A DNA stretch of 64,000 bases from Acetobacter estunensis (GTDB lineage Bacteria > Pseudomonadota > Alphaproteobacteria > Acetobacterales > Acetobacteraceae). The stretch lies in contig NZ_WOTH01000003.1 of NCBI RefSeq assembly GCF_011516945.1, forward strand, positions 1-64,000. The letters run 5' to 3'. Both the position numbers and the translations under genes were made by a program. This document shows, piece after piece, positions 345-14,843 of the stretch. The stretch's first letter is position 1. Every line of letters begins with the position of its first letter. The notes below the pieces were generated by a model. That model ran no database searches. It was not told the origin of the DNA and saw only the letters and a list, made by a program, of their open reading frames with translations.

Positions 345-445
345 CAGGCCCTACACGTTCATGCGGCGGGACCGTATTGCGTGGATGGGTTCTTCGATGA
401 GGAACGTCCCAGCAACGCGGCCTGAACAGACGGCTGTGTTTCTAT

Positions 446-476
446 AGCCCCGGCTCCGATGTGAAGAGCCGGGGCT
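446..476 (-). terminator. Hairpin downstream of the dehydrogenase gene
   Basis: A perfect 11-bp inverted repeat (AGCCCCGGCTC and its complement) encloses a 9-nt loop. It sits 8 bp beyond the stop of the minus-strand dehydrogenase. No clear U-run follows on either strand, so it may be a weak or bidirectional terminator rather than a textbook one. Confidence 0.5.
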
Positions 477-483
477 GATGCCG

Positions 484-1455
484 TCAGGCCGTGACAGGGG
501 TGACCGGCGGTTTGCCTGCCGCCACGGCCGCCACGTTATCGAGCGCGAGCATCCCCATATCGGTGCGGGTCTCCACTGTGGCGCTGCCCACATGTGGTGT
601 CATGAACAGGTTGGGCAATTCCAGAAGACGTGGATCGGGGTGGGGTTCGTTGCGGCAGACATCCAGCCCGGCACCCGCAAGATGCCCGCTGCGCAGGGCG
701 TCGATCAGCGCGTCCTCATTCACCAGCCGCCCGCGGGCAGCGTTGACGAAAATCGCACCTTTGGGAAGTTTCGCCAGAAAGGCCGCATCGACCATGCCGT
801 CCGTGTCATCGCTGCCGGGCAGGTGAAGGCTGATGATCTGACACCGTGGCAGCATGTCATCGAGATGCTCCACCCATGTCGCGCCTTCTTCCTTCTCGGG
901 TGAGAGGCGGCGACGATTGTTGTAGAGCACCGTCGTGCCAAAGCCGCGTGCCCGTCGCGCAACGGCCTGACCGATGCGTCCCATACCCACGATACCCAGC
1001 GTTTTGCCGCTCACGCGCTGGCCGAGCATCTCGTCCATGCCCAGATCGCGTCCCCAGCCGGCGCGCACGAGTGCTGTGTATTCGGCGGCCCGGCGGGAGG
1101 TGGCAAGGATCAGCAGCATGGCGAGGTCGGCATTGCAGTCCGTCAGCACGTCGGGGGTATTGCTCACCGCAATGCCGCGCGCGGTGATGGCGGCGACATC
1201 GAGATGATCGAGACCGACGCTGACAGTGGCCACCAGCTTGACCGTGGAAGGTATGCGCTGTGCCGCTTCGGCGTTGATGGCGGCGTGGTGCGTCACCAGC
1301 ATGGCCTCGGCGTGTGTCTTTTCCGCGAGACGGAAGAGGGTATCGGTGTCCAGCGGCTTGTCTGGCGGTGGCGGAGCGTCGAATTCTGCTGCGATACGGG
1401 CCTCGACCGCCTCTGGGAGTCGGACACTGCGAACGATGTGAGGGCGGGCGGCCAT
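484..1455 (-). CDS. D-2-hydroxyacid dehydrogenase (glyoxylate/hydroxypyruvate reductase-like)
   Basis: 323-aa cytosolic NAD(P)-dependent reductase of 2-keto acids. The nucleotide-binding motif GIVGMGRIGQA lies near residue 150. The family catalytic residues are visible as Arg in NAARGR, Glu in CRNEP and His in PHVGSA. The start was set at the ATG at 1455 because CAGGAGA lies 6-7 nt upstream; an upstream in-frame ATG at 1512 has no such site and would add an unconserved tail. The family includes glyoxylate, hydroxypyruvate and 2-ketogluconate reductases, the last important in acetic acid bacteria; the substrate cannot be decided from sequence. It is divergent from aat with about 180 bp between the starts. 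Confidence 0.88.
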   Translation of the reverse strand: MAARPHIVRSVRLPEAVEARIAAEFDAPPPPDKPLDTDTLFRLAEKTHAEAMLVTHHAAINAEAAQRIPSTVKLVATVSVGLDHLDVAAITARGIAVSNTPDVLTDCNADLAMLLILATSRRAAEYTALVRAGWGRDLGMDEMLGQRVSGKTLGIVGMGRIGQAVARRARGFGTTVLYNNRRRLSPEKEEGATWVEHLDDMLPRCQIISLHLPGSDDTDGMVDAAFLAKLPKGAIFVNAARGRLVNEDALIDALRSGHLAGAGLDVCRNEPHPDPRLLELPNLFMTPHVGSATVETRTDMGMLALDNVAAVAAGKPPVTPVTA

Positions 1456-1636
1456 GTTGATCTCCTGAATGGGGGCGCGTGCCCCGATGATGCGGGGCGG
1501 TCGGCGCTGCATGCAAGCGGGTGACTTTCACGTAAAAGGGAAACAGCCGATCGGGGAAGAGGTTGCGACATGTGTTCGCAGGGCTGGCTGCGGCGCGTAT
1601 GATGGGGCGACGAAGAGCAGAACAGATGGGCGTGAG

Positions 1637-2308
1637 ATGAGCGGGGAAATCGAACTGACGCCGGAGTTGATGTTACGGGCCTATTCCATCGGTCTTTTCC
1701 CAATGGCGAGCGATGATCATCCCGACCAGTTGGACTGGTATGACCCGGATCCACGCGGTGTCATGCCGCTGCATCGTTTCCATCTGTCGAAACGGTTGAC
1801 CCGCACGGCGCTGAGTGACCGGTTCGAGGTTGTCGTGGACCGTGATTTCGAAGGCACGATGCGGGCCTGCGCAGCCCCGGCACCGGGGCGGGAGACGACA
1901 TGGATCAGCGAGACCATCGTGCGTCTGTTCTGTGCCCTGCATCGGGAAGGCTTCGCGCACAGCGTCGAGGCGTGGAGTGAAGGGCGCATGGTGGGTGGCC
2001 TGTATGGAGTGGCGCTGGGGGCGGCCTTTTTCGGTGAAAGCATGTTCAGCCGGGCGACGGACGCCTCCAAGGTGGCGCTGGTGCATCTCGTGGCGCGTCT
2101 GCGTCTGTGCGGGTTCGAACTGTTGGACACGCAGTTCGGCACGGCGCATCTGGCGCAGTTCGGGGGGATCGAGATCCCGGCCTTTCGCTACAAGGAGGCG
2201 CTGGCGCGTGCTGTTCGCGTCGATCCGCGGTGGAGGGGGATTATGGAGGCGGAACTCCGTGACGAAATTCGGCGCATGCGGGAGGAAACGGCGTCAAGGG
2301 GCTGTTGA
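1637..2308 (+). CDS. aat: Leucyl/phenylalanyl-tRNA--protein transferase
   Basis: 223 aa, normal family length. It transfers Leu or Phe from aminoacyl-tRNA to proteins with N-terminal Arg or Lys, marking them for ClpS/ClpAP degradation (bacterial N-degron pathway). Family blocks are clear: LMLRAYSIGLFPMA at the N-terminus, WYDPDPRGVMPL, the central GGLYGVALGAAFFGESMFS, and LLDTQFGTAHLAQFGGIEI. The start was taken at the ATG of MSGEIEL; the frame extends further upstream but those residues are not family-like. It is the first plus-strand gene and stands alone, with about 75 bp before the next gene. Confidence 0.95.
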   Translation: MSGEIELTPELMLRAYSIGLFPMASDDHPDQLDWYDPDPRGVMPLHRFHLSKRLTRTALSDRFEVVVDRDFEGTMRACAAPAPGRETTWISETIVRLFCALHREGFAHSVEAWSEGRMVGGLYGVALGAAFFGESMFSRATDASKVALVHLVARLRLCGFELLDTQFGTAHLAQFGGIEIPAFRYKEALARAVRVDPRWRGIMEAELRDEIRRMREETASRGC

Positions 2309-2383
2309 CGGCGCGGGTGTTATGGGGTGGTTTCGTTTTCGTGAGCACATGCTTGTGCTGCCCGGCTGGAAAGGACGTCGCCA

Positions 2384-3154
2384 ATGATCGCAACCGTTTC
2401 GTGGAGGCGCGGGCTTGCCGCTGCAACGCTGCTGGCTTCCCTGTCAGTATCGGGAAGCGCACTTGCCGCGTCCGAACATCCGCCGCTGATGCCTCTGCGC
2501 GATGCGGTCGTGACGTACGATGTCCAGCCGGATGGGGCGCCTGAAAGCCAGCGCGTGAAGGTATGGTTCACGACGGAGGGGGCGCGCATGCGGGTGGACT
2601 CGCCCGATGGCGCGGCGTCCACCATTCTCGATCGCACCAATCAGGCTGTCACCATCGTTTTGCACCGGCAGCATGTGTACAGTCATCTGGTGCGGCGGGG
2701 AACCGTACGCAATCCGTTCCTCCTCGATGTCTCCATGCAATTCCAGCGCAAGGGAGAGCGTAACATTGCCGGTGTGAGCTGTACGTTGTGGGATGTGACG
2801 ACCGCGCACGGACAGGCGACGGCATGTGTCACGGCGGACGGGCTGGTGCTGGCTGAGGATGGCGTGGATGCCGATGGCGCGAAGGGTAAGCTTTCTGCGG
2901 TTACGGTCGATTATCACCCCATCGCCGCATCCGAGTTCGAGCCGCCTGCGGGGTATCAGGACGTGACGCAACGCTCGGCCAAAGCCGGAGGCACGGCGGC
3001 TCCGGCTACGCCGAAGATTGCGACACCGTCTTCTCCGGCAAAGGGCGAGGAACCGTTGATCCAGACGCCGCATGAAACGGCTCCCGATACATCGGATCTG
3101 CCCAAGGAATCGGAGGCCGATGTCGGCTCGCCGGGGGCATCTTCCGCACCATGA
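2384..3154 (+). CDS. Exported DUF4412-like protein with acidic Pro-rich tail (paralogue 1)
   Basis: 256 aa. A Sec-type signal peptide is visible (WRRG then a hydrophobic stretch ending SGSALA), so the product is probably periplasmic. The body starts VTYDVQPDG and contains two cysteines in GVSCTLW and TACVTADGL, spaced as if for a disulfide. The last 75 residues are rich in Ala, Pro, Glu and Ser and look disordered. The next gene encodes a shorter paralogue with the same VTY start and paired cysteines, and the two overlap by ATGA, so they are co-translated. The resemblance to DUF4412 is by eye only; no activity is known to me. Confidence 0.75.
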   Translation: MIATVSWRRGLAAATLLASLSVSGSALAASEHPPLMPLRDAVVTYDVQPDGAPESQRVKVWFTTEGARMRVDSPDGAASTILDRTNQAVTIVLHRQHVYSHLVRRGTVRNPFLLDVSMQFQRKGERNIAGVSCTLWDVTTAHGQATACVTADGLVLAEDGVDADGAKGKLSAVTVDYHPIAASEFEPPAGYQDVTQRSAKAGGTAAPATPKIATPSSPAKGEEPLIQTPHETAPDTSDLPKESEADVGSPGASSAP

Positions 3155-3741
3155 TGGGAAGGGAAAGACGTCATTTCCTGCGTAATAGTGGGATACTGGC
3201 GCTGGGCCTGATGGCCCCTCTTGCGGCGCAGGCGGATAAGACCACGGGCCCCTATGTCACGCCGTCGGTTGATGTCGCGGTGACGTATGAACTGGCCTCT
3301 CCGGAAGGAGGCGCGCCTGTCCGTCAGGACATGCATTGGCAGGTCGCGACGTTGCGTCAACGGATCGATCCGGCCGGATCGGCGGTGTATATGATTACAT
3401 CGTGGAAGGACCGCACGCTGACGGTGGTGGACACGCTCTCCCATCGCCGCAGCACCATGCCCGCGCCCGGAACGGCCCTGACTCTGCCGGGACAGGTGGC
3501 TGCCGGGTCGTTCGCGAGAATGGGCACGGACACGGTGGCAGGCCAGTTCTGTACGGTCTGGCGCACTGTGGATCAGGACGGCCGTCCCGGAGATGCGTGC
3601 TACACGGCGGACGGCATTCTGGTGAGGATGGTGCAGGGTGGTCGCACCATGGTGCAGGCGGTGTCGGTTGAACGTGTGCCGCAGCCCGACGCGCTGTTCG
3701 TGGTGCCGCAGGATTATTCCGAGACGGCGCCCGCCCGGTGA
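3151..3741 (+). CDS. Exported DUF4412-like protein with Tat-like signal (paralogue 2)
   Basis: 196 aa. The N-terminus ERRHFLRNSG followed by a hydrophobic stretch ending in AAQA matches a twin-arginine signal (RRxFL), unlike its neighbour's Sec-type signal. The body aligns with the upstream protein: VTYELASP, a DRTLTVVDTLSHR block, then AGQFCTVW and GDACYTADGILV with the two conserved cysteines. It lacks the disordered C-terminal tail of paralogue 1. The start overlaps the preceding stop (ATGA); a second ATG directly follows and may be used instead. Function unknown; the pair may act together in the periplasm. Confidence 0.75.
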   Translation: MMGRERRHFLRNSGILALGLMAPLAAQADKTTGPYVTPSVDVAVTYELASPEGGAPVRQDMHWQVATLRQRIDPAGSAVYMITSWKDRTLTVVDTLSHRRSTMPAPGTALTLPGQVAAGSFARMGTDTVAGQFCTVWRTVDQDGRPGDACYTADGILVRMVQGGRTMVQAVSVERVPQPDALFVVPQDYSETAPAR

Positions 3742-3830
3742 GCCGAGGGGTGGAGCGTCGGTGATGTTCGGGCTTCACATTGCCATAGGTCACGGTTACA
3801 GGAGCGCACGACAGGGAGACAGCGGAAGAG

Positions 3831-4866
3831 ATGACTGAAACGATGTCTGTGGGAGTGGTGATTCCTTCCTACAAGGTCACCGCTCACATTCTGGATGTCA
3901 TCTCCCGTATTGGCCCGGAAGTGCAGAAAATTTACGTGGTGGATGATTGCTGTCCGGATCGTTCCGGTGATCTGGTGGAGCGCTCCTGCACCGATGCCCG
4001 TGTGACGGTGGTGCGGCATGAGCACAATCAAGGGGTTGGCGGAGCGGTAATGACAGGCTACCGCGCCGCGATCCGCGACGATGTGGATGTCATTGTGAAG
4101 ATCGACGGCGACGGTCAGATGGACCCTGCTCTCGTGCCGGAGTTTGTGGCTCCGATCCTCACGGGACATGCCGATTACACAAAAGGCAATCGGTTCTTCA
4201 ATTTGGAGGGGCTATCATCCATGCCGGGGATGCGGCTTTTCGGGAACGCGGTCCTTTCCTTCATGACCAAGATTTCCTCCGGTTACTGGAGCCTGTTCGA
4301 TCCCACGAATGGGTACACGGCCATTCATCGCGACGTGGCTGCTCTTTTACCCATGGAGCGCATCAGTTTTACCCATGGAGCGCATCAGTCGTCGTTATTT
4401 CTTTGAAACCGACATGCTGTTCCGACTCAATATTCTCAAGGCGACCGTGCTGGATGTGCCGATGGCGGCGCAATATGGAGACGAGGTGAGCAATCTCAAG
4501 ATTGGCAAGGTAGCGCCCGAGTTTCTGCGCAAGCATCTGGTCAATTTCTGCAAGCGTCTCTTCTACAGCTATTATTTGCGCGATATGTCGCTGGCGTCCT
4601 TGGAACTGCCGCTGGGCGTTTTGCTGGTTCTGGGAGGGACGATCATTGGTGGCATTCACTGGCTGCACAGTCTTCAGGCGGGCGTGTATGCGTCAGCGGG
4701 AACAGTGATGCTGGCAGGATTGCCGATCATTCTCGGGACGCAGTTCATTCTGGCGTTTCTTTCCTATGACATCCTCTCGGAGCCGGGAAAGCGCACTGGC
4801 CTGCCGTTATGGCGGGTTCTGGATGCTTGCGGTGTCAACGCGAGCCGCAAAATGAGCAACGTCTGA
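3831..4866 (+). pseudogene. GtrB/DPM1-like GT2 glycosyltransferase, frameshifted by a 22-bp tandem duplication
   Basis: The N-terminal part (VIPSYKV, VVDDCCPDRSGDLVE, KIDGDGQMDP, FDPTNGYTAIHRDVAA) is a GT-A polyprenyl-phosphate glycosyltransferase. It reads out of frame after 4366 and stops at 4406. The remainder (RRYFFETDMLFRLNILKA, then two C-terminal membrane helices near 4600-4660 and 4705-4770) continues in the next frame to 4866. Removing one copy of the 22-bp duplication at 4345-4388 restores a 337-aa protein reading LLPMERISRRYFFE. Intact, it would charge a lipid carrier with sugar for the two membrane proteins encoded downstream. An ATG at 4375 could allow re-initiation of the C-terminal 163 aa. 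Sequencing or assembly error is possible but a precise duplication suggests slippage. Confidence 0.85.
4345..4388 (+). repeat. Exact 22-bp tandem duplication
   Basis: The 22-nt unit beginning ttttacccatggagcgc occurs at 4345-4366 and again at 4367-4388 with no mismatch. Because 22 is not a multiple of three it shifts the GT2 reading frame by one. Loss of one copy would restore the gene, so the site could act as a reversible switch. Confidence 0.95.
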
Positions 4867-5210
4867 TGGATATTTTCTGGTCCATTCTGTGCGTATGCGG
4901 CATCGCGATAGGACAGATCCTTTTCAAGATCAGTGCTTCAGGTCTGAAAAAAGCCGGCACAGTATTCGATGTGCCAAGTCTGGCGGTTCTGACGGCGGCG
5001 CTCGCGCTCTATGGCATCACCACTATTGGCTGGGTCTGGGTGTTACAGCGCGCGGAGTTGGGGCGCGTTTACCCCTTCATGGCGCTGGCTTTCGTCATTG
5101 TGCCTGTTCTGAGTCATTTCTTTCTGCACGAAAGCTTTAACCGGCAATACATGCTGGGTGTCGGGCTGATTATCGCAGGGATTGTAGTCTCTTTAGGAGG
5201 AAAAGCGTGA
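4866..5210 (+). CDS. Small EamA/SMR-like membrane protein (ArnE/ArnF type)
   Basis: 114 aa with four hydrophobic segments: MDIFWSILCVCGIAIGQILF, a second around SLAVLTAALALYGITTIGW, a third around VYPFMALAFVIVPVL, and a fourth LGVGLIIAGIVVSLGG. The GQILFKISA element and overall size match the half-EamA proteins that flip lipid-linked sugars (ArnE/ArnF) or small multidrug exporters. The start overlaps the stop of the GT2 gene (TGATG) and the end overlaps the next gene (GTGA), so the three are a translationally coupled unit. Between a lipid-carrier glycosyltransferase and a DUF2142 protein, flipping the charged lipid is the likeliest role (inference). Confidence 0.82.
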   Translation: MDIFWSILCVCGIAIGQILFKISASGLKKAGTVFDVPSLAVLTAALALYGITTIGWVWVLQRAELGRVYPFMALAFVIVPVLSHFFLHESFNRQYMLGVGLIIAGIVVSLGGKA

Positions 5211-6580
5211 CGGCAGAGGATTGGAGGATGCCGGAAGCGCGACGCTTTACACTCCTTTTTTATGTCTTTCTCGGTTTTTTCTGTTTCGTGCTCACGGAAA
5301 TCCTGCCTCCCATGCAGTCCCCCGATGAGCCTGAGCATGTGAAACGGGCGTGGTTTCTGACGCAGGGAGTCATTTTGCTGGAACATCCGCAGGGCAATCT
5401 TTCAGGCGGCCCGATCGACAGCGGACTTTCGGATTATATGGTCTTTTCCAAGCAATGGAATCAGCGGCCGGATTTACGACTGACGCAGCGTGATATTGCT
5501 ACTTTTGAGAGTTTTCGCTGGTCGCACCAGAATGTTTTCAGTGTTGCCGCCGGGACTGGCTATTACTTTCCATTGATCTACCTGCCGCAAGCGGTGGGCT
5601 TATGGACAGGACGTACCCTTGATCTTTCGATCGACAAATCGTACCGACTGGCGCGTGGACTGGCCACGGTTTCAGTTATCCTGATTACACTGTCAGCTTT
5701 TGCGCTTTACACGCCGAACGGCCTTGTTCTCGCGCTGCTGGCCATGCCCATGACATTGTTTCAGTCTTCATCCGCCAGCCTGGACGGCATGGCCACTGCT
5801 GTGACTCTTCTGGCACTGTCAGCTTTCATGCGGATTATGCGGGAAAAGGAGGCTGCGTCTCTTCGGCTTTTCTGGATCATGTGCGTCAGTATCGTGTTGG
5901 TGTGTACGTGCCGCACTCATGCTCTGCCGATGCTCCTTCTGCCTTTTGTCGCATGGTTTTCACTTCGGCGTCGCAACCTGCTATCTGCCGCCGTAATTGT
6001 GACGATCCTGTCGGTCGCCTGGACGATGGTCGCCATGAAGACGACGGCCTATTCTGAAACCTATGGCCATATTTCCACGGATCATCGGTTGCTCAACTAT
6101 GTTCTGCATCCCGGTGTTGTCGCCGGTTATGTGATCCGGACATTGTGCGATTCCAGTACCCGCAACTTCTATTTCGTTTCTTTTGTGGGAGATCTCGGGT
6201 GGCTGGATACGCCGTTGTCAGCACATGCTTACAAGGTGTTGGGTATCCTGCTTGTGGTGGCCTTTGCGCTTGCACTGCCACGGAAATTCCTGCGGCAAAG
6301 GATCATGGAGCAAGGAGTGCTGGTGATCATGATGGTCGGTGCCTTGATACTGACTTTTCTCGCCCTTCTGTTGTCATGGACGCCTGCGGGTTCCCCGATC
6401 ATTGTTGGTGTACAGGGACGGTATCTTCTGATTCCAGCGCTTTTTCTGGCTTATGCTCTGACGGATACGGAAAAGAAGGGGCATGTAATCGGGGGGATGC
6501 TGCCCGCAATAGCGATCCTGCTGTTTTCGGTACATCAAATGCTCCCCACAATCTTGTTCCGGTATTATATCGCGCCTTGA
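5207..6580 (+). CDS. DUF2142 family polytopic membrane protein (putative GT-C glycosyltransferase)
   Basis: 457 aa. Starts at a GTG preceded by a strong AGGAGG at 5195-5200. After the first membrane helix comes EILPPMQSPDEPEHVKRAWF, the family's PPxQxPDEPxH signature with an acidic pair on the outer face, as in GT-C enzymes that use lipid-linked sugars. About ten further hydrophobic segments follow. Together with the GT2 and the EamA-like gene it resembles the gtrA-gtrB-gtrC or arnC-arnEF-arnT layout: charge the carrier lipid, flip it, transfer the sugar to a surface polymer. The acceptor is unknown. With the GT2 gene broken, this protein may have no donor in this strain. Confidence 0.82.
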   Translation: MTAEDWRMPEARRFTLLFYVFLGFFCFVLTEILPPMQSPDEPEHVKRAWFLTQGVILLEHPQGNLSGGPIDSGLSDYMVFSKQWNQRPDLRLTQRDIATFESFRWSHQNVFSVAAGTGYYFPLIYLPQAVGLWTGRTLDLSIDKSYRLARGLATVSVILITLSAFALYTPNGLVLALLAMPMTLFQSSSASLDGMATAVTLLALSAFMRIMREKEAASLRLFWIMCVSIVLVCTCRTHALPMLLLPFVAWFSLRRRNLLSAAVIVTILSVAWTMVAMKTTAYSETYGHISTDHRLLNYVLHPGVVAGYVIRTLCDSSTRNFYFVSFVGDLGWLDTPLSAHAYKVLGILLVVAFALALPRKFLRQRIMEQGVLVIMMVGALILTFLALLLSWTPAGSPIIVGVQGRYLLIPALFLAYALTDTEKKGHVIGGMLPAIAILLFSVHQMLPTILFRYYIAP

Positions 6581-6647
6581 TCGGTAACAAAGAACAGAAG
6601 GGTATGAGAGGGTGTGATTCAGGAAAACGGGAAGGAGAAGAAAGACA

Positions 6648-9600
6648 GTGAACCCTTCCCGTCTCTTCATCTTCCGTCCCGTCGCCACGACCCTCATCGC
6701 GCTCGCCATGGTGTTCGCGGGCCTGCTGTCGTGGCGCGTCATGCCGGTTGCGGATCTGCCTGACATTTCGGTACCGGTGATCTATGTGATCGCATCGCAG
6801 CAGGGCAGTTCGCCGCAGCAGATGGCCAGCGCCGTCACCACGCCGCTGGAGCGCAGGCTCGGGGCGATTGCGGGTGTCACGCAGATGACATCCGACACCA
6901 CGGACCGCTCTTCTTTCATTCTGCTGTTCTTCGATGACGCGCGCGACATCAATGGAGCGGCGCGAGACGTGCAGGCGGCGTTGCAGGCCGCGCGGCAGGA
7001 CATGCCGCACACGCTCATTGAGAACCCGCAATATTACAAGGCCAATCCGTCCGACAATCCCGTGATGATCGCGGTGTTGACGTCCGACACGCGCCCACTG
7101 ACCGAACTGCGCGATTTCGCGGAGACGCGGCTGGTGTCGCAACTCGCCGGGATTTCGGGAGTGGGGTGGGTACAGCCGGAGGGCGCGGCCAAACCGGCTG
7201 TACGGGTGGAGATGAACCCTTATCTCCTGTTCCATTACGGCATCGGTTTTGAGGATATCCGCTCGGCACTGGCTTCGGCCAATGCCAACACACCTAAAGG
7301 CAGCCTTGATATAGCTGGGCAGCGCCTGATGCTGGCCACCAACGATCAAGCCCGCAAGGCCGAGCAATATCGCGATCTGGTGGTGGGATATCGCAGCGGG
7401 CGGCCCGTGCGGTTGACCGATGTGGCGCAGGTGGAAAACGGACCGCAGGACGAGCGCGAAGCCGCGTGGTTCGACGGACATCCCGCGGTTGTGTCCATCA
7501 TCCGACCGCAGCCGGGGGCGAATGTCATTGCGTTGACAGATGCCATTCGTGACCATGAGAAGCGTCTGCAACAGGTCTTGCCTGCGGATGTGAAGCTGAC
7601 TCTGGCCGATGACATGTCGCGTTCCATCCGCGCGGCCCTCTGGGATACGGAACTGACCCTGATCATCTCGGTCGTGCTGGTTGTGATCGTGGTGCTGGCG
7701 TTTCTGCGTTCGTGGCGCTCCACGTTGATCCCTGCCGTAACGGTGCCGGTCTCGCTCGCAGGCACTGTGGCCACGATGCATTTCCTCGGCTTTTCCCTCG
7801 ACACGCTCTCGCTCATGGCGTTGACCATCGCCACGGGTTTCGTGGTCGATGACGCCATCGTAGTGGTGGAAAACATTGCACGGCACATGGAAGGCGGCAT
7901 GAGCCGACTGGAGGCAGCGCTGGTCGGATCGCGCGAGATCGTCTTTACGGTGCTCTCCATTACCATTTCACTGATCGCCGTGTTTCTGCCGCTTCTTCTG
8001 CTTTCCGGTATTCCGGGAAAAATTTTCTTCGAATTCGCCATGACATTGACCACGGCGGTGGCGATTTCCTTTTTCCTTTCCCTGTCGCTCACCCCCATGA
8101 TGTGCGCGCGGTTTCTCGAAGTGCACCATGGACACTCATCCATCGAGGGACATGGACTGGTCCGTCTGGCGCACCGGGCCTTTGATCTGATTGAGGCCGC
8201 GCTGGACGGTACGGTCAGGATCTACCTTCGTTCGCTCGATCATGCGTTGCGGCATCGCTGGTGGGTGCTGACCTCGCTTCCCGCCAGTGTGGGCCTGACG
8301 GTTCTTGGCATCATGCTGATGTCGAAAACGATCCTGCCGCCTGAGGATATTGCGCTGGTCTCGGGCTATCTCAGCATGGACCAGACCAGCTCGTTCCGTA
8401 CCGTATCGGAGAAGACGCAGGCGGTGATCGCGGCCATGATGAAGGACCGCGAAGTCACTTCAGTCGTGGCATTCACGGGGGATGATGCGGCTAATGAAGC
8501 GTCCGCCTTTGCCACGCTGACGGACAAGCACGCCCGGCGCGATACGCCGGAAGATGTGGCAAAGCGTATTCAGGGACGTGTGGATCATATTGCGGGGCTG
8601 GATGCACAGATCTCCAATTCGGGTGATGTGAACGGTGGTGGCGGCCGCCAGAAGAAAGGCAACTACACCTATGTCTTCCGCAGTGAGGACGGAGAGGCGC
8701 TGGCGACATGGGTGCCCCGTCTGTCCGAGGAACTGCGGGGGCATTCCATGCTGACCGACGTGAGTTCGGACATCAGTAATCACGGGCGCGCTCTGCATGT
8801 GGATATCCGCCGCGACACGGCGGCGCGGTATCTCATCACGCCGGAACTGATCGGCAATGCCCTGCTCGATGCATTTGGCCAGCGCACGGCGTCGAACATT
8901 TCCACGCCGCTGACAACCTATTACGTGGTGATGGAAGCGATGAAGGCGTTTCGGGAAAACCCTGAAACGCTGCGTTCGCTCTGGGTGTCCACAGCGGGCG
9001 GCACGGCGGGCGGCGGCACGGTCTCGAACTCGATCCGTGTGCGGGTGCCGGATCAGCAGGATTCACGCACAGCCGCCCTGAGCCGTCAGTCCTTCCGTAA
9101 CCAGATCGCCAACCGTCTGGCGGGTGGGGCGGGCGCTTCGAACGGATCGGCTGTGTCGTCTTCGACCGAGACGATGGTGCCGCTCATTTCGGTGGCTGAT
9201 CTGACTTATCGTCCATCACCGTTACAGGTCAGTCATGAGAGCGGCGCTGTGTCCGGTTCCATTTCCTTCAATCTGCCACACGGCAAGGGGCTGTCGGATG
9301 CAGAGGCCGAAATCGCACGGGCAGAGCGTGCAATCCACATGCCGGATACGGTGCGGGGCGGCTTCACCGGACGCGCGGCGGAATTCAACAAGGCGCTGAT
9401 GAATGAAGTGCTGGTGTTCATGGCGGCCTTGGTGACGATGTACGTCACGCTGGGCATTCTCTATGAAAGCCTGATCCATCCCCTGACCATTCTTTCCACG
9501 TTGCCCTCGGCAGCAGTGGGAGCCGTGCTGGCCTTGTGGGCGGCGGGCGAGCCTTTCTCGCTGATCGCGATGATTGGCGTGATTCTGCTGGTGGGGCTGG

Positions 9601-9986
9601 TAAAGAAGAACGCGATCCTGCTGATCGACTTCGCGCTGCATGCGGAGCGGGACGGCGGGATGACGCCTGAGGCCGCGATCCGGGAGGCGTGTCTGCGCCG
9701 GTTCCGTCCGATCCTGATGACGACACTTGCGGCGGCCTTGGGCGCGGTGCCGCTGGTGATCGGTAATGGCTATGGCGCCGAACTGCGGCGGCCTCTGGGG
9801 ATTGCCGTCGTCGGCGGTCTGGCCGTGAGTCAGTTGTTGACACTCTATTCCACGCCGGTTGTCTACTTGTTCATGGAAAGCATGCGGCAGCGGAGTGCGG
9901 GGTGGCTTGGATGGGTGAAAAAGACGTTCACCGGGGCGCATAAGGGGCGCTCGGATGGGGTGGTTGCGGATGAAATGCGTCGGTAG
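6648..9986 (+). CDS. RND-family efflux pump inner-membrane subunit (HAE1/MdtC-like)
   Basis: 1112 aa, starting at GTG with GAAGGAG upstream. The opening FIFRPVATTLIALAMVFAG, then DLPDISVPVIYV and AVTTPLERRLG, are typical of MdtB/C-type hydrophobe/amphiphile pumps. The proton relay is intact: the Asp pair in GFVVDDAIVVVEN near residue 400 and the Lys in GLVKKNAILLIDF near 985. It is about 60-90 residues longer than AcrB/MdtC, partly through a Gly/Ser-rich insertion in the second periplasmic half (around 9000-9170). Neither a membrane-fusion protein nor an outer-membrane factor lies beside it, so it must borrow partners encoded elsewhere or work alone. Confidence 0.93.
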   Translation: MNPSRLFIFRPVATTLIALAMVFAGLLSWRVMPVADLPDISVPVIYVIASQQGSSPQQMASAVTTPLERRLGAIAGVTQMTSDTTDRSSFILLFFDDARDINGAARDVQAALQAARQDMPHTLIENPQYYKANPSDNPVMIAVLTSDTRPLTELRDFAETRLVSQLAGISGVGWVQPEGAAKPAVRVEMNPYLLFHYGIGFEDIRSALASANANTPKGSLDIAGQRLMLATNDQARKAEQYRDLVVGYRSGRPVRLTDVAQVENGPQDEREAAWFDGHPAVVSIIRPQPGANVIALTDAIRDHEKRLQQVLPADVKLTLADDMSRSIRAALWDTELTLIISVVLVVIVVLAFLRSWRSTLIPAVTVPVSLAGTVATMHFLGFSLDTLSLMALTIATGFVVDDAIVVVENIARHMEGGMSRLEAALVGSREIVFTVLSITISLIAVFLPLLLLSGIPGKIFFEFAMTLTTAVAISFFLSLSLTPMMCARFLEVHHGHSSIEGHGLVRLAHRAFDLIEAALDGTVRIYLRSLDHALRHRWWVLTSLPASVGLTVLGIMLMSKTILPPEDIALVSGYLSMDQTSSFRTVSEKTQAVIAAMMKDREVTSVVAFTGDDAANEASAFATLTDKHARRDTPEDVAKRIQGRVDHIAGLDAQISNSGDVNGGGGRQKKGNYTYVFRSEDGEALATWVPRLSEELRGHSMLTDVSSDISNHGRALHVDIRRDTAARYLITPELIGNALLDAFGQRTASNISTPLTTYYVVMEAMKAFRENPETLRSLWVSTAGGTAGGGTVSNSIRVRVPDQQDSRTAALSRQSFRNQIANRLAGGAGASNGSAVSSSTETMVPLISVADLTYRPSPLQVSHESGAVSGSISFNLPHGKGLSDAEAEIARAERAIHMPDTVRGGFTGRAAEFNKALMNEVLVFMAALVTMYVTLGILYESLIHPLTILSTLPSAAVGAVLALWAAGEPFSLIAMIGVILLVGLVKKNAILLIDFALHAERDGGMTPEAAIREACLRRFRPILMTTLAAALGAVPLVIGNGYGAELRRPLGIAVVGGLAVSQLLTLYSTPVVYLFMESMRQRSAGWLGWVKKTFTGAHKGRSDGVVADEMRR

Positions 9987-10125
9987 AGGCGCTCCATTAC
10001 CAAACCCACATGACGTGGTAGTGTTGCTTGGGTGACGGGCGTGTTAAGTTGCCTGTCGTGGGGAGCTGATGGCGGATGGTGCTCCTTCCATATGGAAATC
10101 CGTCGTGAACATGAGGACATGGTCT

Positions 10126-10254
10126 ATGGCCAAGGATTGCTGCAAGGGTGCAGGCGACTGCGCTCCGAAAAAGGGCTGCTGCTCGTTTAAAAAAGTTTTC
10201 GGCTTCATCGTGGTGGCCGGAATTGCCGGCTTCCTGTGGAAGAAGTTCCGTTGA
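10126..10254 (+). CDS. 42-aa cysteine-rich single-pass membrane peptide
   Basis: The start was set at the ATG at 10126 because TGAGGA lies 8 nt upstream; in-frame upstream ATGs at 10069 and 10111 lack a site. The first 20 residues (MAKDCCKGAGDCAPKKGCCS) contain five cysteines and several lysines, followed by one membrane helix (VFGFIVVAGIAGFLW) and a KKFR end. The Cys cluster could bind a metal or a heme/Fe-S partner, but nothing proves it. It has its own terminator 60 bp downstream. I do not recognise a named family; the clear start site, terminator and composition make a real gene likely. Confidence 0.6.
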   Translation: MAKDCCKGAGDCAPKKGCCSFKKVFGFIVVAGIAGFLWKKFR

Positions 10255-10315
10255 ACGGAACGTGCTGAAGCACGGACATCCGCAGCGCTTCTGAAGGGCT
10301 GGAGGATGACTTAAG

Positions 10316-10344
10316 AACGGTCGCCCAAGGGCGGCCGTTTTTTT
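10316..10344 (+). terminator. Rho-independent terminator after the Cys-rich peptide gene
   Basis: AACGGTCGCC and GGCGGCCGTT form a 10-bp stem with one G-U pair and a 4-nt loop, followed directly by a run of T on the plus strand. Confidence 0.85.
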
Positions 10345-10520
10345 ATGGGCTTTTTGCATAGTGAATTATTGGCTGGTCTCGTTTTTCAGAACATAGGGTG
10401 CCGTGGGCGAGGGATTTATTCGACATTCTTGTCAGTCGGGTGACAGATCCAGCTTATGAGACCTCTTCTTTTTTCTTTTATGGGCATTATTTCATGAGAG
10501 TGTGAAGATGAATTATTGGC
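10341..10520 (+). promoter_or_regulatory. mucR upstream region with ordered direct repeats
   Basis: This AT-rich gap of about 300 bp precedes mucR. Two words recur in the same order: TTTTATGGGC at 10341-10350 and 10476-10485, and TGAATTATTGGC at 10362-10373 and 10509-10520. MucR/Ros proteins are known to bind AT-rich sites and often autoregulate, so these are candidate operator halves or remnants of a local duplication. No convincing -35/-10 pair was found. Confidence 0.45.
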
Positions 10521-10649
10521 CGCAAAGTGATGGAAGGCATTGCGTCGGATGATGGAGGTGATTATTACTTATTCCATCCTCTATCGCGGAAGATGCAGAG
10601 GTTTTCGTCAGTTACTTTGCTATCCGCTCAAAGTGTAACGGAGTTTGTC

Positions 10650-11114
10650 GTGTCTGAAAACAAGCCCATTTCCCCGCTTCTTGAGCTGACAGCCCAGATT
10701 GTCTCGGCTCAGGTCTCGAACAATTCGCTTTCTCCCGAGAGTCTTCCCAGTCTGATCCGTGACGTTTACACGGCGCTGGAAAGTGCGGGACAGGTTGCGC
10801 CTGAGCCCGAGAAGCCGCAGCCGGCTGTGCCGATCAAACGTTCGGTTTTCCCTGATTACATCGTGTGTCTGGAAGACGGAAAGAAGCTCAAGATGCTCAA
10901 GCGGCATCTCCAGAGTGCTTATGGCATGACGCCCGATCAGTATCGTGAGCGTTGGGGTCTTCCCACCGATTACCCGATGGTGGCGCCCAACTACGCTGAG
11001 CGTCGCTCCACGCTGGCGCGCGAAATCGGTCTTGGCCGCAAGATCAGCGCCAGCAGCAGCCCGGCTGAGGGTGAGGAAAGCGGTCGTCGTCGCGGTCGCA
11101 AGGCTCAGTCCTGA
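10650..11114 (+). CDS. mucR: MucR/Ros-family transcriptional regulator
   Basis: 154 aa. Starts at GTG 10650, with ACGGAG 6 nt upstream; the frame extends to an ATG at 10527 but that stretch is not conserved. The N-terminus (LLELTAQIVSAQVSNN) is the oligomerisation region. The C-terminal zinc-finger-type fold is clear: VFPDYIVCLEDGKKLKMLKRHL, then MTPDQYRERWGLP, YPMVAPNYAERRS and AREIGLG. As in many MucR proteins only one Cys of the classical pair remains (YIVCLEDG). The family acts like H-NS on AT-rich promoters and in alphaproteobacteria controls exopolysaccharide, motility and cell cycle. The repeats upstream suggest autoregulation. Confidence 0.93.
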   Translation: MSENKPISPLLELTAQIVSAQVSNNSLSPESLPSLIRDVYTALESAGQVAPEPEKPQPAVPIKRSVFPDYIVCLEDGKKLKMLKRHLQSAYGMTPDQYRERWGLPTDYPMVAPNYAERRSTLAREIGLGRKISASSSPAEGEESGRRRGRKAQS

Positions 11115-11147
11115 TACACGGTCTGTTTTTCCGTGCCGTGAACGGAG

Positions 11148-11181
11148 GGGTAAGGATGATTCAGGTCGTCCTTACCCTTTT
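11148..11181 (+). terminator. Rho-independent terminator after mucR
   Basis: GGGTAAGGA at 11148 pairs perfectly with TCCTTACCC at 11169-11177, with a 12-nt loop and a TTTT tail. Confidence 0.85.
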
Positions 11182-11227
11182 GTGTAATCAGGGTGCCGAA
11201 AAGATATGAATGAAAAGCGGGAGCGAC

Positions 11228-12196
11228 ATGGAACCGGATGCTGATGACGTAATGGGGCGTGCGCTGTTGAAGCGACGGCTGTGGCGTTGGCGCGCCGGGG
11301 CTGTGATTGCCGTGGCGGTGGCGGTTCTCTTTGCGGCGTCATCGTCGGTTCCACCGGGAAAGGGATGGTCGTCCGCCGGAAAAATCGTCGGACCGCATCT
11401 GGTTCGGGTCGATGTGCGCGGCATGATCGGTTCAGACGTTTCCCGTTGGACGAAAGCTCTCGATCAGGCCAGCCGGGATTCTTCGGTGAAGGGGCTTGTC
11501 CTCGCTATCGACAGCCCCGGTGGCGCTGTGACGGGCGGTGAGGAATTGCACGACGCCGTTGAGCATTTCGCGCAGACGAAGCCGGTTGTGGCGACGATGG
11601 GCGGTATGGGGGCTTCGGCGGGCTATATGATCGCGGTGCCCGCCACTCGCATTTTCGCTGAACGCAGCACGTTGACCGGTTCCATCGGTGTGTTGATGGA
11701 GGCTCCGGAGTTCTCCGGCCTGCTCGGGCGTTTGGGAGTGAATGTTCAGGAACTGGTGTCGGGGCCGCTGAAGGGGCAGCCATCGCTTACGAAACCTGTC
11801 ACGCCGGAAGGCCGTGTGATGCTTCAGGGCGTGGTGAATGACCTGTTCGACCAGTTCGTGACGATGGTGGTCAACGGGCGCCATATGCCGGTGGAGAAAG
11901 TCCGTCAGCTTGCCGATGGGCGCCCTTACACCGGTCGACAGGCGCTGGCGGCCGGATTGATCGATGAGGTGGGAAGTGCGCGGGATGCGCAGGTCTGGCT
12001 GGGAAAGAAGGTCGGCCTTGGTGACAGTCCGAAAATTGTTAGGATTGGCGAGGCTCCGAAGAGTTTTGTCGTCCGCCATCATATTCTGGGCTGGTTTGGG
12101 AATGTTGTGATGTCATGGCTGGGCCTTGATGTGTCCGGAATTGCGCCACAATTGCAGGTTCCGATTGACGGCGCGGTCTCTATCTGGAAACCTTGA
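11228..12196 (+). CDS. sppA: Signal peptide peptidase SppA, short 36-kDa type (S49)
   Basis: 322 aa from the ATG at 11228 (GGGAG just upstream); an ATG at 11210 is an alternative giving 328 aa. One N-terminal membrane helix (GAVIAVAVAVLFAA) anchors it with the active domain in the periplasm. The S49 fold shows IDSPGGAVTGGEEL, the nucleophile Ser in GGMGASAGYMIA, and TGSIGVLMEAP; the general-base Lys is probably that in SGPLKGQPS. It degrades cleaved signal peptides in the membrane. The next gene, ihfB, begins 22 bp after, an order common in Alphaproteobacteria. Confidence 0.93.
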   Translation: MEPDADDVMGRALLKRRLWRWRAGAVIAVAVAVLFAASSSVPPGKGWSSAGKIVGPHLVRVDVRGMIGSDVSRWTKALDQASRDSSVKGLVLAIDSPGGAVTGGEELHDAVEHFAQTKPVVATMGGMGASAGYMIAVPATRIFAERSTLTGSIGVLMEAPEFSGLLGRLGVNVQELVSGPLKGQPSLTKPVTPEGRVMLQGVVNDLFDQFVTMVVNGRHMPVEKVRQLADGRPYTGRQALAAGLIDEVGSARDAQVWLGKKVGLGDSPKIVRIGEAPKSFVVRHHILGWFGNVVMSWLGLDVSGIAPQLQVPIDGAVSIWKP

Positions 12197-12217
12197 CCCT
12201 GCCCATGGGGAGGCGCG

Positions 12218-12520
12218 ATGACCAGATCCGAACTTGTGGCGGAAATTGCCGCTGCGAATCCTCATCTCTTGCTCAGAGATGTCGAACTGATCGTTCATAC
12301 GATCTTCGATGAACTGACGTCGGCCCTTGCGCGGGGTGACAGGGTGGAGTTGCGTGGATTCGGGGCGTTTACCGTCAAGAAGCGTGATGCGCGTGCGGGC
12401 CGGAATCCGCGCACGGGAGAAACCGTGGCTGTGGAAGAAAAGGTCGTGCCTTTCTTCAAGGCTGGCAAAGAACTGCGTGAGCGTGTCAACGGCACCATTC
12501 CGCAGGATGACGACGCCTGA
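12218..12520 (+). CDS. ihfB: Integration host factor beta subunit
   Basis: 100 aa of the HU/IHF family. [17 protein letters not shown] and the [19 protein letters not shown] block are beta-subunit specific, and [13 protein letters not shown] is the DNA-intercalating arm with its Pro. [17 protein letters not shown] ends the conserved core. With IhfA (encoded elsewhere) it sharply bends DNA for transcription, replication and recombination. A GGGGAGG ribosome site lies 4-10 nt before the ATG. Likely co-transcribed with sppA. Confidence 0.96.
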
Positions 12521-12535
12521 CTGCGAGCGTTCGTG

Positions 12536-12565
12536 CTTGTGCGCGTGGTTGCAACTCATTACAAT
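12536..12565 (+). promoter_or_regulatory. Possible sigma-70-type promoter
   Basis: CTTGTG at 12536-12541 and TACAAT at 12560-12565 are separated by 18 bp, about 60 bp before the following small gene. Only a partial match to consensus. Confidence 0.3.
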
Positions 12566-12624
12566 GATAGAGGTTCCTGCAACGTTGCCGGCCTGATGCG
12601 CGGGCTTTTTGGACAGGTCGCGGC

Positions 12625-13005
12625 ATGTTCAGAGCTCGTGTATTTCCCGAACAGTCTTATCCGCTTCTTCCCCCACGGCGAAGGGTGGCCTCCGTCCTCG
12701 TGAAGGGGGCGGTACTGATGTGTGTTGCGTTGCCTCTCTGCCCTGTGTCTCAGGCGCGGGCGATGACAGAGGCTGTGACACATCACGCGTCAGCTTCATC
12801 TCATCACGTCACAAAGCGCCCTGCGCGTCATCATGTCGCTTTGCGGGGCTGCCTTTCCGGCGGGGCGGTCATTGCCACGCATGGTCATGTGCTGCGGGAT
12901 ATTGGGCGGCGTGGGCGATTGTTGGCTCCGGTGGGCCGGGCGATTTATTATACGGATCGTCATCATGGCTGTATTCCCGGTAAACATGCGCGCCGACGCG
13001 GCTGA
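12625..13005 (+). CDS. Hypothetical exported His-rich protein
   Basis: 126 aa. An unusually long charged N-terminus is followed by a hydrophobic segment (VLVKGAVLMCVALPLC) ending VSQARA, which could be a signal peptide. The mature part is rich in His and Arg (HHASASSHH, RPARHH) with three cysteines. No family is recognised. The ribosome site is weak, so the start is uncertain. Competing frames on both strands over this stretch look less protein-like. It may be a genuine small periplasmic protein, possibly metal-interacting because of the histidines (inference). Confidence 0.45.
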   Translation: MFRARVFPEQSYPLLPPRRRVASVLVKGAVLMCVALPLCPVSQARAMTEAVTHHASASSHHVTKRPARHHVALRGCLSGGAVIATHGHVLRDIGRRGRLLAPVGRAIYYTDRHHGCIPGKHARRRG

Positions 13006-14683: not shown

Positions 14684-14757
14684 GTCGCTGAAGGATGCTT
14701 AGTAAATAATGGGGGAAGTCTGAGGCTGATAAAGATTAAGGCTTTCTTGGATGGCTG

Positions 14758-14843
14758 TGGTGCGAACTGCGGGACTCGAACCCGCACGCCCTTACGGACT
14801 CGAGATTTTAAGTCTCGTGCGTCTACCATTCCGCCAAGTTCGC
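14758..14843 (-). tRNA. tRNA-Leu (anticodon UAA)
   Basis: 86 nt read on the minus strand. The acceptor stem GCGAACT/AGTTCGC is perfect, the anticodon stem-loop reads CGAGA-CTTAAAA-TCTCG giving UAA, a long class II variable arm is present, the T-loop is GGTTCGAGTCC, and the 3' CCA is encoded. It reads UUA/UUG leucine codons, which are rare in this high-GC genome. Confidence 0.97.

Follow-up and report, generated by a model that had tools for sequence, protein, structure and literature searches.

In the window, the 64-kb stretch of an Acetobacter genome analysed here, an open reading frame for a GtrB-like glycosyltransferase (3831–4866) is split by a 22-base tandem duplication. The preliminary description had suggested that this duplication could be an on/off switch of surface glycosylation. 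The question is therefore whether the locus is such a switch or carries an ordinary inactivating mutation.

The duplication and the interrupted gene

The features of the gene and its duplication are as follows.

3831..4406, + strand: 5′ part of the GtrB-like gene with the GT2 catalytic domain, 191 aa, premature stop at 4404–4406 (Pfam PF00535, PHROG 841, ORF)
4345..4366, + strand: duplication copy 1, exactly identical to copy 2 (Tandem Repeats Finder, genome scan)
4367..4388, + strand: duplication copy 2, on the same evidence; in the relatives G007 and A. orleanensis the site is only one copy long
4267..4866, + strand: open C-terminal frame of the GtrB-like gene, in which 4390–4866, past the duplication, shows homology to the intact gene and holds hydrophobic membrane segments
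4375..4866, + strand: hypothetical re-initiated C-terminal fragment of 163 aa from an ATG in the C-terminal frame (coding to 4863); weak start context, no product claimed

The two 22-base copies were exact, adjacent and head-to-tail, as the preliminary description had stated, and the repeat extended by one more base, to 4389. Tandem Repeats Finder gave this array a 100% match and a score of 90, the runner-up array in the 64-kb window scoring 53. A scan of the window and 20 further stretches of 20 kb from the same 3.45-Mb genome (464,000 of 3,447,365 bases) revealed the duplication to be the only perfect tandem pair with a unit of 12–399 bases in the sequence sampled, so that chance is not a credible origin for it. 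Each strand around the duplication was folded once with RNA parameters, without a shuffle control, and showed nothing distinctive; a search of viral contigs for the junction pattern gave 0 matches.

As 22 bases do not make up whole codons, the duplication puts translation out of frame. The reading from the ATG at 3831 ended at the stop at 4404–4406, which separated the 191-aa front part from the C-terminal frame; the latter was open from 4267, read RRYFFETDMLF... and ended at 4866. The frame shift claimed in the preliminary description was thereby borne out. The 337-aa length and the LLPMERISRRYFFE reading were taken from the one-copy gene of the related genome G007 (L087:5097–6110), not from a window gene edited to one copy.

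The front part matched Glycos_transf_2 (Pfam PF00535, E 1.3e-17) and the GtrB-like PHROG 841 (E 6.8e-12), and residues 3–226 of the intact G007 protein matched dolichol monophosphate mannose synthase (5mlz, E 7.7e-13); together these matches relate the GT2 domain to GtrB/DPMS. Simple hydropathy of the intact G007 protein placed a pair of C-terminal membrane segments at residues 247–265 and within 276–304. In the window gene both segments fell after the break, and the front fragment had no hydrophobic segment by hydropathy. From these matches the intact product is predicted to be a DPMS-like polyprenyl-phosphate-sugar synthase of the GT2 family, which would transfer a sugar to polyprenyl phosphate.

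Comparison with related genomes

A DNA search found a match in 5 of the 49 genomes of the genus, the source genome included. The closest relative compared, G007, shared 95.2% identity with the window over the region 351–12758, in a colinear alignment of 12,408 columns with gene order kept. At the site of the duplication G007 had a single copy within an uninterrupted 337-aa gene; A. orleanensis (LMG 1583) likewise had a single copy at the same place and one uninterrupted frame.

Two bases that differ from G007 were present in both window copies (TTTTACCC in the window, TTCTGCCC in G007), so the duplication most simply postdates those changes. In the single-copy form the ends of the unit shared one base (T) only. 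Longer repeats that could have given rise to the duplication, or that could promote its recurrence, were thus absent. With the duplication removed, the gene differed from that of G007 at 35 of 990 bases, and 29 of these differences fell at third codon positions; 13 of 513 bases differed before the duplication and 22 of 477 after it. Relative to G007, the remainder of the gene showed no other indel and no second lesion. The first full codon of the unit was changed doubly, from Leu CTG in G007 to TTA in the window, which is unusual but not telling, as 20 of the 3,276 other compared codons also differed at two or three bases. The age of the duplication is only weakly set by the identity of its copies, as a pair of 22-base copies might remain unchanged over a long period, and the conservation between the window and G007 may mostly reflect the time before the duplication.

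The survey was extended to 82 homologous loci, comprising the best 80 of 568 matched by the front part of the protein together with G007 and G005. In 80 of these 82 the frame was open for 300 aa or more, so that recurrent breakage was not borne out among these relatives; of the two exceptions, L017 ran off its contig and L020 was broken by a different lesion. A perfect tandem pair with a unit of 12–199 bases was found at none of the 82 loci, either inside the match or up to 100 bases from it. Most of these loci belong to other genera with one genome per species, so that this count speaks against a conserved repeat and not against switching within a species. With one copy in both G007 and A. 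orleanensis as well, no conserved or recurrent repeat was found at the site among these relatives.

The L020 locus (294–1190) lies in a betaproteobacterial draft genome. Its GtrB homologue was interrupted near residue 220, and no perfect tandem duplication was present.

The neighbouring cassette

Two genes for membrane proteins follow the GtrB-like gene.

4866..5210, + strand: small ArnE/ArnF-like (EamA) membrane protein of 114 aa, whose start overlaps the gtrB stop (NCBIfam ArnE, E 5.4e-11, under the curated cut-off; Pfam EamA, E 6.3e-08)
5207..6580, + strand: DUF2142 multi-spanning membrane protein, whose start overlaps the preceding stop (Pfam PF09913, E 4.1e-46)

The DUF2142 protein is probably the GT-C type transferase of the cassette. 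No GtrA family was present among the Pfam, NCBIfam or PHROG matches of the neighbour of gtrB, where a GtrA-type flippase was looked for. The three genes are read as a cassette operating in the manner of gtr or arn systems, in which a lipid-linked sugar is made, flipped and transferred. Within 3.5 kb of the homologous loci (tblastn, E 1e-4) the small protein was found in 36 of 84, the DUF2142 protein in 12 of 84 and both in 11 of 84, a count in which two loci are present twice and some have short flanks.

The same three-gene cassette was present in A. orleanensis (L088, 5443–8233) beside neighbours other than those in the window, which suggests that its chromosomal location varies within the genus. 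Another Acetobacter genome (G004, C58:95–843) had DUF2142-like matches in two abutting pieces, which suggests a frame break or fragments.

A compensating second copy of gtrB was also sought. The source genome encoded no second gtrB of the same subfamily, its best other match having 26% identity (E 2.2e-10), and a search of it with the C-terminal half of GtrB gave no match at E 0.01.

Indels across the window

Alignment of the whole window with G007, in five BLAST rows totalling 63,694 columns (two rows of at most 800 columns were dropped), revealed 18 indels, of which 13 were not a multiple of three. The 22-base duplication was the longest of the 18, and none of the other frame-breaking indels was found within the body of a Pfam-supported gene; among the recognisable genes of the aligned region, only the GtrB-like gene is clearly interrupted in its body. 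The other 12 frame-breaking indels comprised three at gene edges, listed below, and others in ORFs that were short or had no Pfam match, those under about 115 aa having been tested against Pfam only in part.

45129: gene-edge indel in a 2OG-Fe(II) oxygenase gene, ahead of the Pfam domain
48588: gene-edge indel in an LPG_synthase_TM gene, ahead of the Pfam domain
49826: gene-edge indel in a GT2 gene, ahead of the Pfam domain

Two larger differences lay elsewhere in the window. G007 carried about 640 extra bases opposite 14756–14772 (L144:2015–2658). At the left end, 1–350 contained a DDE transposase remnant (51–344; Pfam DDE_Tnp_1_2), and similarity to G007 started directly after it, at 351.

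Comparison with known systems

Waite et al. reportedly found, in 2001 and 2003, spontaneous tandem duplications in pneumococcal capsule genes (the type 3 locus, cap8E and tts), the reversal of which was described as phase variation. Spontaneous reversible sequence duplications of pneumococcal capsule loci are described in PMC4243769, and a duplication in pneumococcal wchA under culture in PMC4022640. As in the window, these are short tandem duplications in the reading frame of a surface-glycan gene, with loss of the gene. The pneumococcal duplications are also described as reversible. Their reversal was termed phase variation, however, whereas here only one allele of one Acetobacter genome is known, in a lipid-carrier glycosyltransferase.

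Polysaccharide mutants of acetic acid bacteria resemble the present case in the spontaneous inactivation of a polysaccharide gene but affect other genes, namely gumD in Kozakia, where the lesion is a transposon insertion, and polE in Acetobacter tropicalis, where a spontaneous polysaccharide mutation is said to have occurred. PMC5553594 describes the Kozakia strain as a spontaneous polysaccharide mutant and states that the change was not reversible. The operons for O-antigen glucosylation (gtrA-gtrB-gtr(type)) of Salmonella, Shigella and phages share with the cassette a GtrB-like GT2 protein with C-terminal membrane segments together with a small and a large membrane protein, whereas the small protein here is ArnE/ArnF-like, without a GtrA-family match, and the large one is a DUF2142 protein. 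Phase variation of gtr in Salmonella is attributed to a DNA methylation-dependent mechanism (PMC2909390), and not to duplication; the word 'duplication' does not occur in the main text of a phase-variation review (PMC11868660).

Discussion

The best explanation, to which we assign a probability of roughly 0.8, is a recent, lineage-specific loss-of-function duplication of 22 bases in the GtrB-like gene of an Acetobacter three-gene lipid-linked-sugar cassette, an ordinary mutation that is in principle revertible. The duplication would have arisen recently inside the polyprenyl-phosphate-sugar synthase gene, and translation would go out of frame after residue 179 and reach a stop 12 codons on. 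The resulting fragment would retain most of the GT2 domain match, but the remainder of the conserved region would be missing, as would the membrane segments at the C terminus; the truncated enzyme is therefore most likely inactive. The stop at 4406 leaves about 460 bases untranslated up to the start of the next gene at 4866, which overlaps the gtrB stop; translation of the two tightly coupled downstream genes is therefore likely to be reduced (polarity). The missing product would be a sugar added to a surface glycan.

The duplication is exact, lies in the reading frame, is not a multiple of three and leaves the rest of the gene intact, as a reversible tandem duplication should. Slippage with loss of one copy would restore the gene, so cultures may be mixed. 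Reversion of this kind is plausible on general grounds and from the pneumococcal precedent. Reversibility through loss of a copy is a property of a mutation, however, and is not evidence of an evolved switch.

Of the interpretation given in the preliminary description, the GtrB-like identity of the gene, its breakage by the duplication and the intact one-copy version in a relative all held, whereas the on/off switch did not. A phase-variable locus, in which two-copy (off) and one-copy (on) cells interconvert often by slippage and are selected for surface variation, would have its precedent in the duplications cited above for pneumococcal capsule loci and wchA, described as spontaneous and reversible, and its target would be fitting, a glycan-type gene that is otherwise intact. 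We nevertheless consider it unlikely. The allele states, two copies in the window and one in G007, are a contrast between genomes, and with only one allele known here there is no support for evolved phase variation. A single copy is likewise present in A. orleanensis, none of the 82 loci (the best 80 of 568 with G007 and G005) has a perfect tandem pair, the single-copy form has no pre-existing repeat beyond one base and the 464 kb sampled held no similar duplication, although this contrary evidence comes from between genomes and not from populations of the Acetobacter species concerned. A bistable switch of surface glycosylation, with the duplication repeatedly gained and lost at this site and the two-copy state selected in some niches, is more doubtful still and would be very improbable.

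An assembly or sequencing artefact, the real genome being one-copy, has in its favour that the assembly is a draft of 120 contigs. It is nonetheless decidedly unlikely, as the assembly looks otherwise clean: the 464 kb sampled contained no further perfect tandem pair, which leaves an assembly-wide artefact signature unsupported, and no other frame-breaking indel was found in the body of a Pfam-supported gene over 63.7 kb. The 44-base array is also shorter than common read lengths. Continued expression of the two-copy allele is highly improbable. Both frames are open across 4267–4406, and a +1 frameshift in this overlap, after the start of the duplication, may yield the whole protein lengthened by seven residues, with some activity left. 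Alternatively two fragments could be made, the second from the ATG at 4375, which is in frame; the separate C-terminal membrane fragment proposed in the preliminary description would start here. Against this, no ribosome-binding site was found at normal spacing before 4375, the nearest candidate being a GGAG 16 bases away, and this poor start context makes re-initiation a weak proposal. The front fragment has no hydrophobic segment, and G007 and A. orleanensis each have a single uninterrupted frame.

If switching were true, a pneumococcal-type mechanism would be extended to the acetic acid bacteria; as it stands, the locus presents one ordinary mutation. Should the strain truly carry the inactivating duplication, the sequenced clone would presumably lack the sugar made by the cassette, through a revertible kind of lesion.
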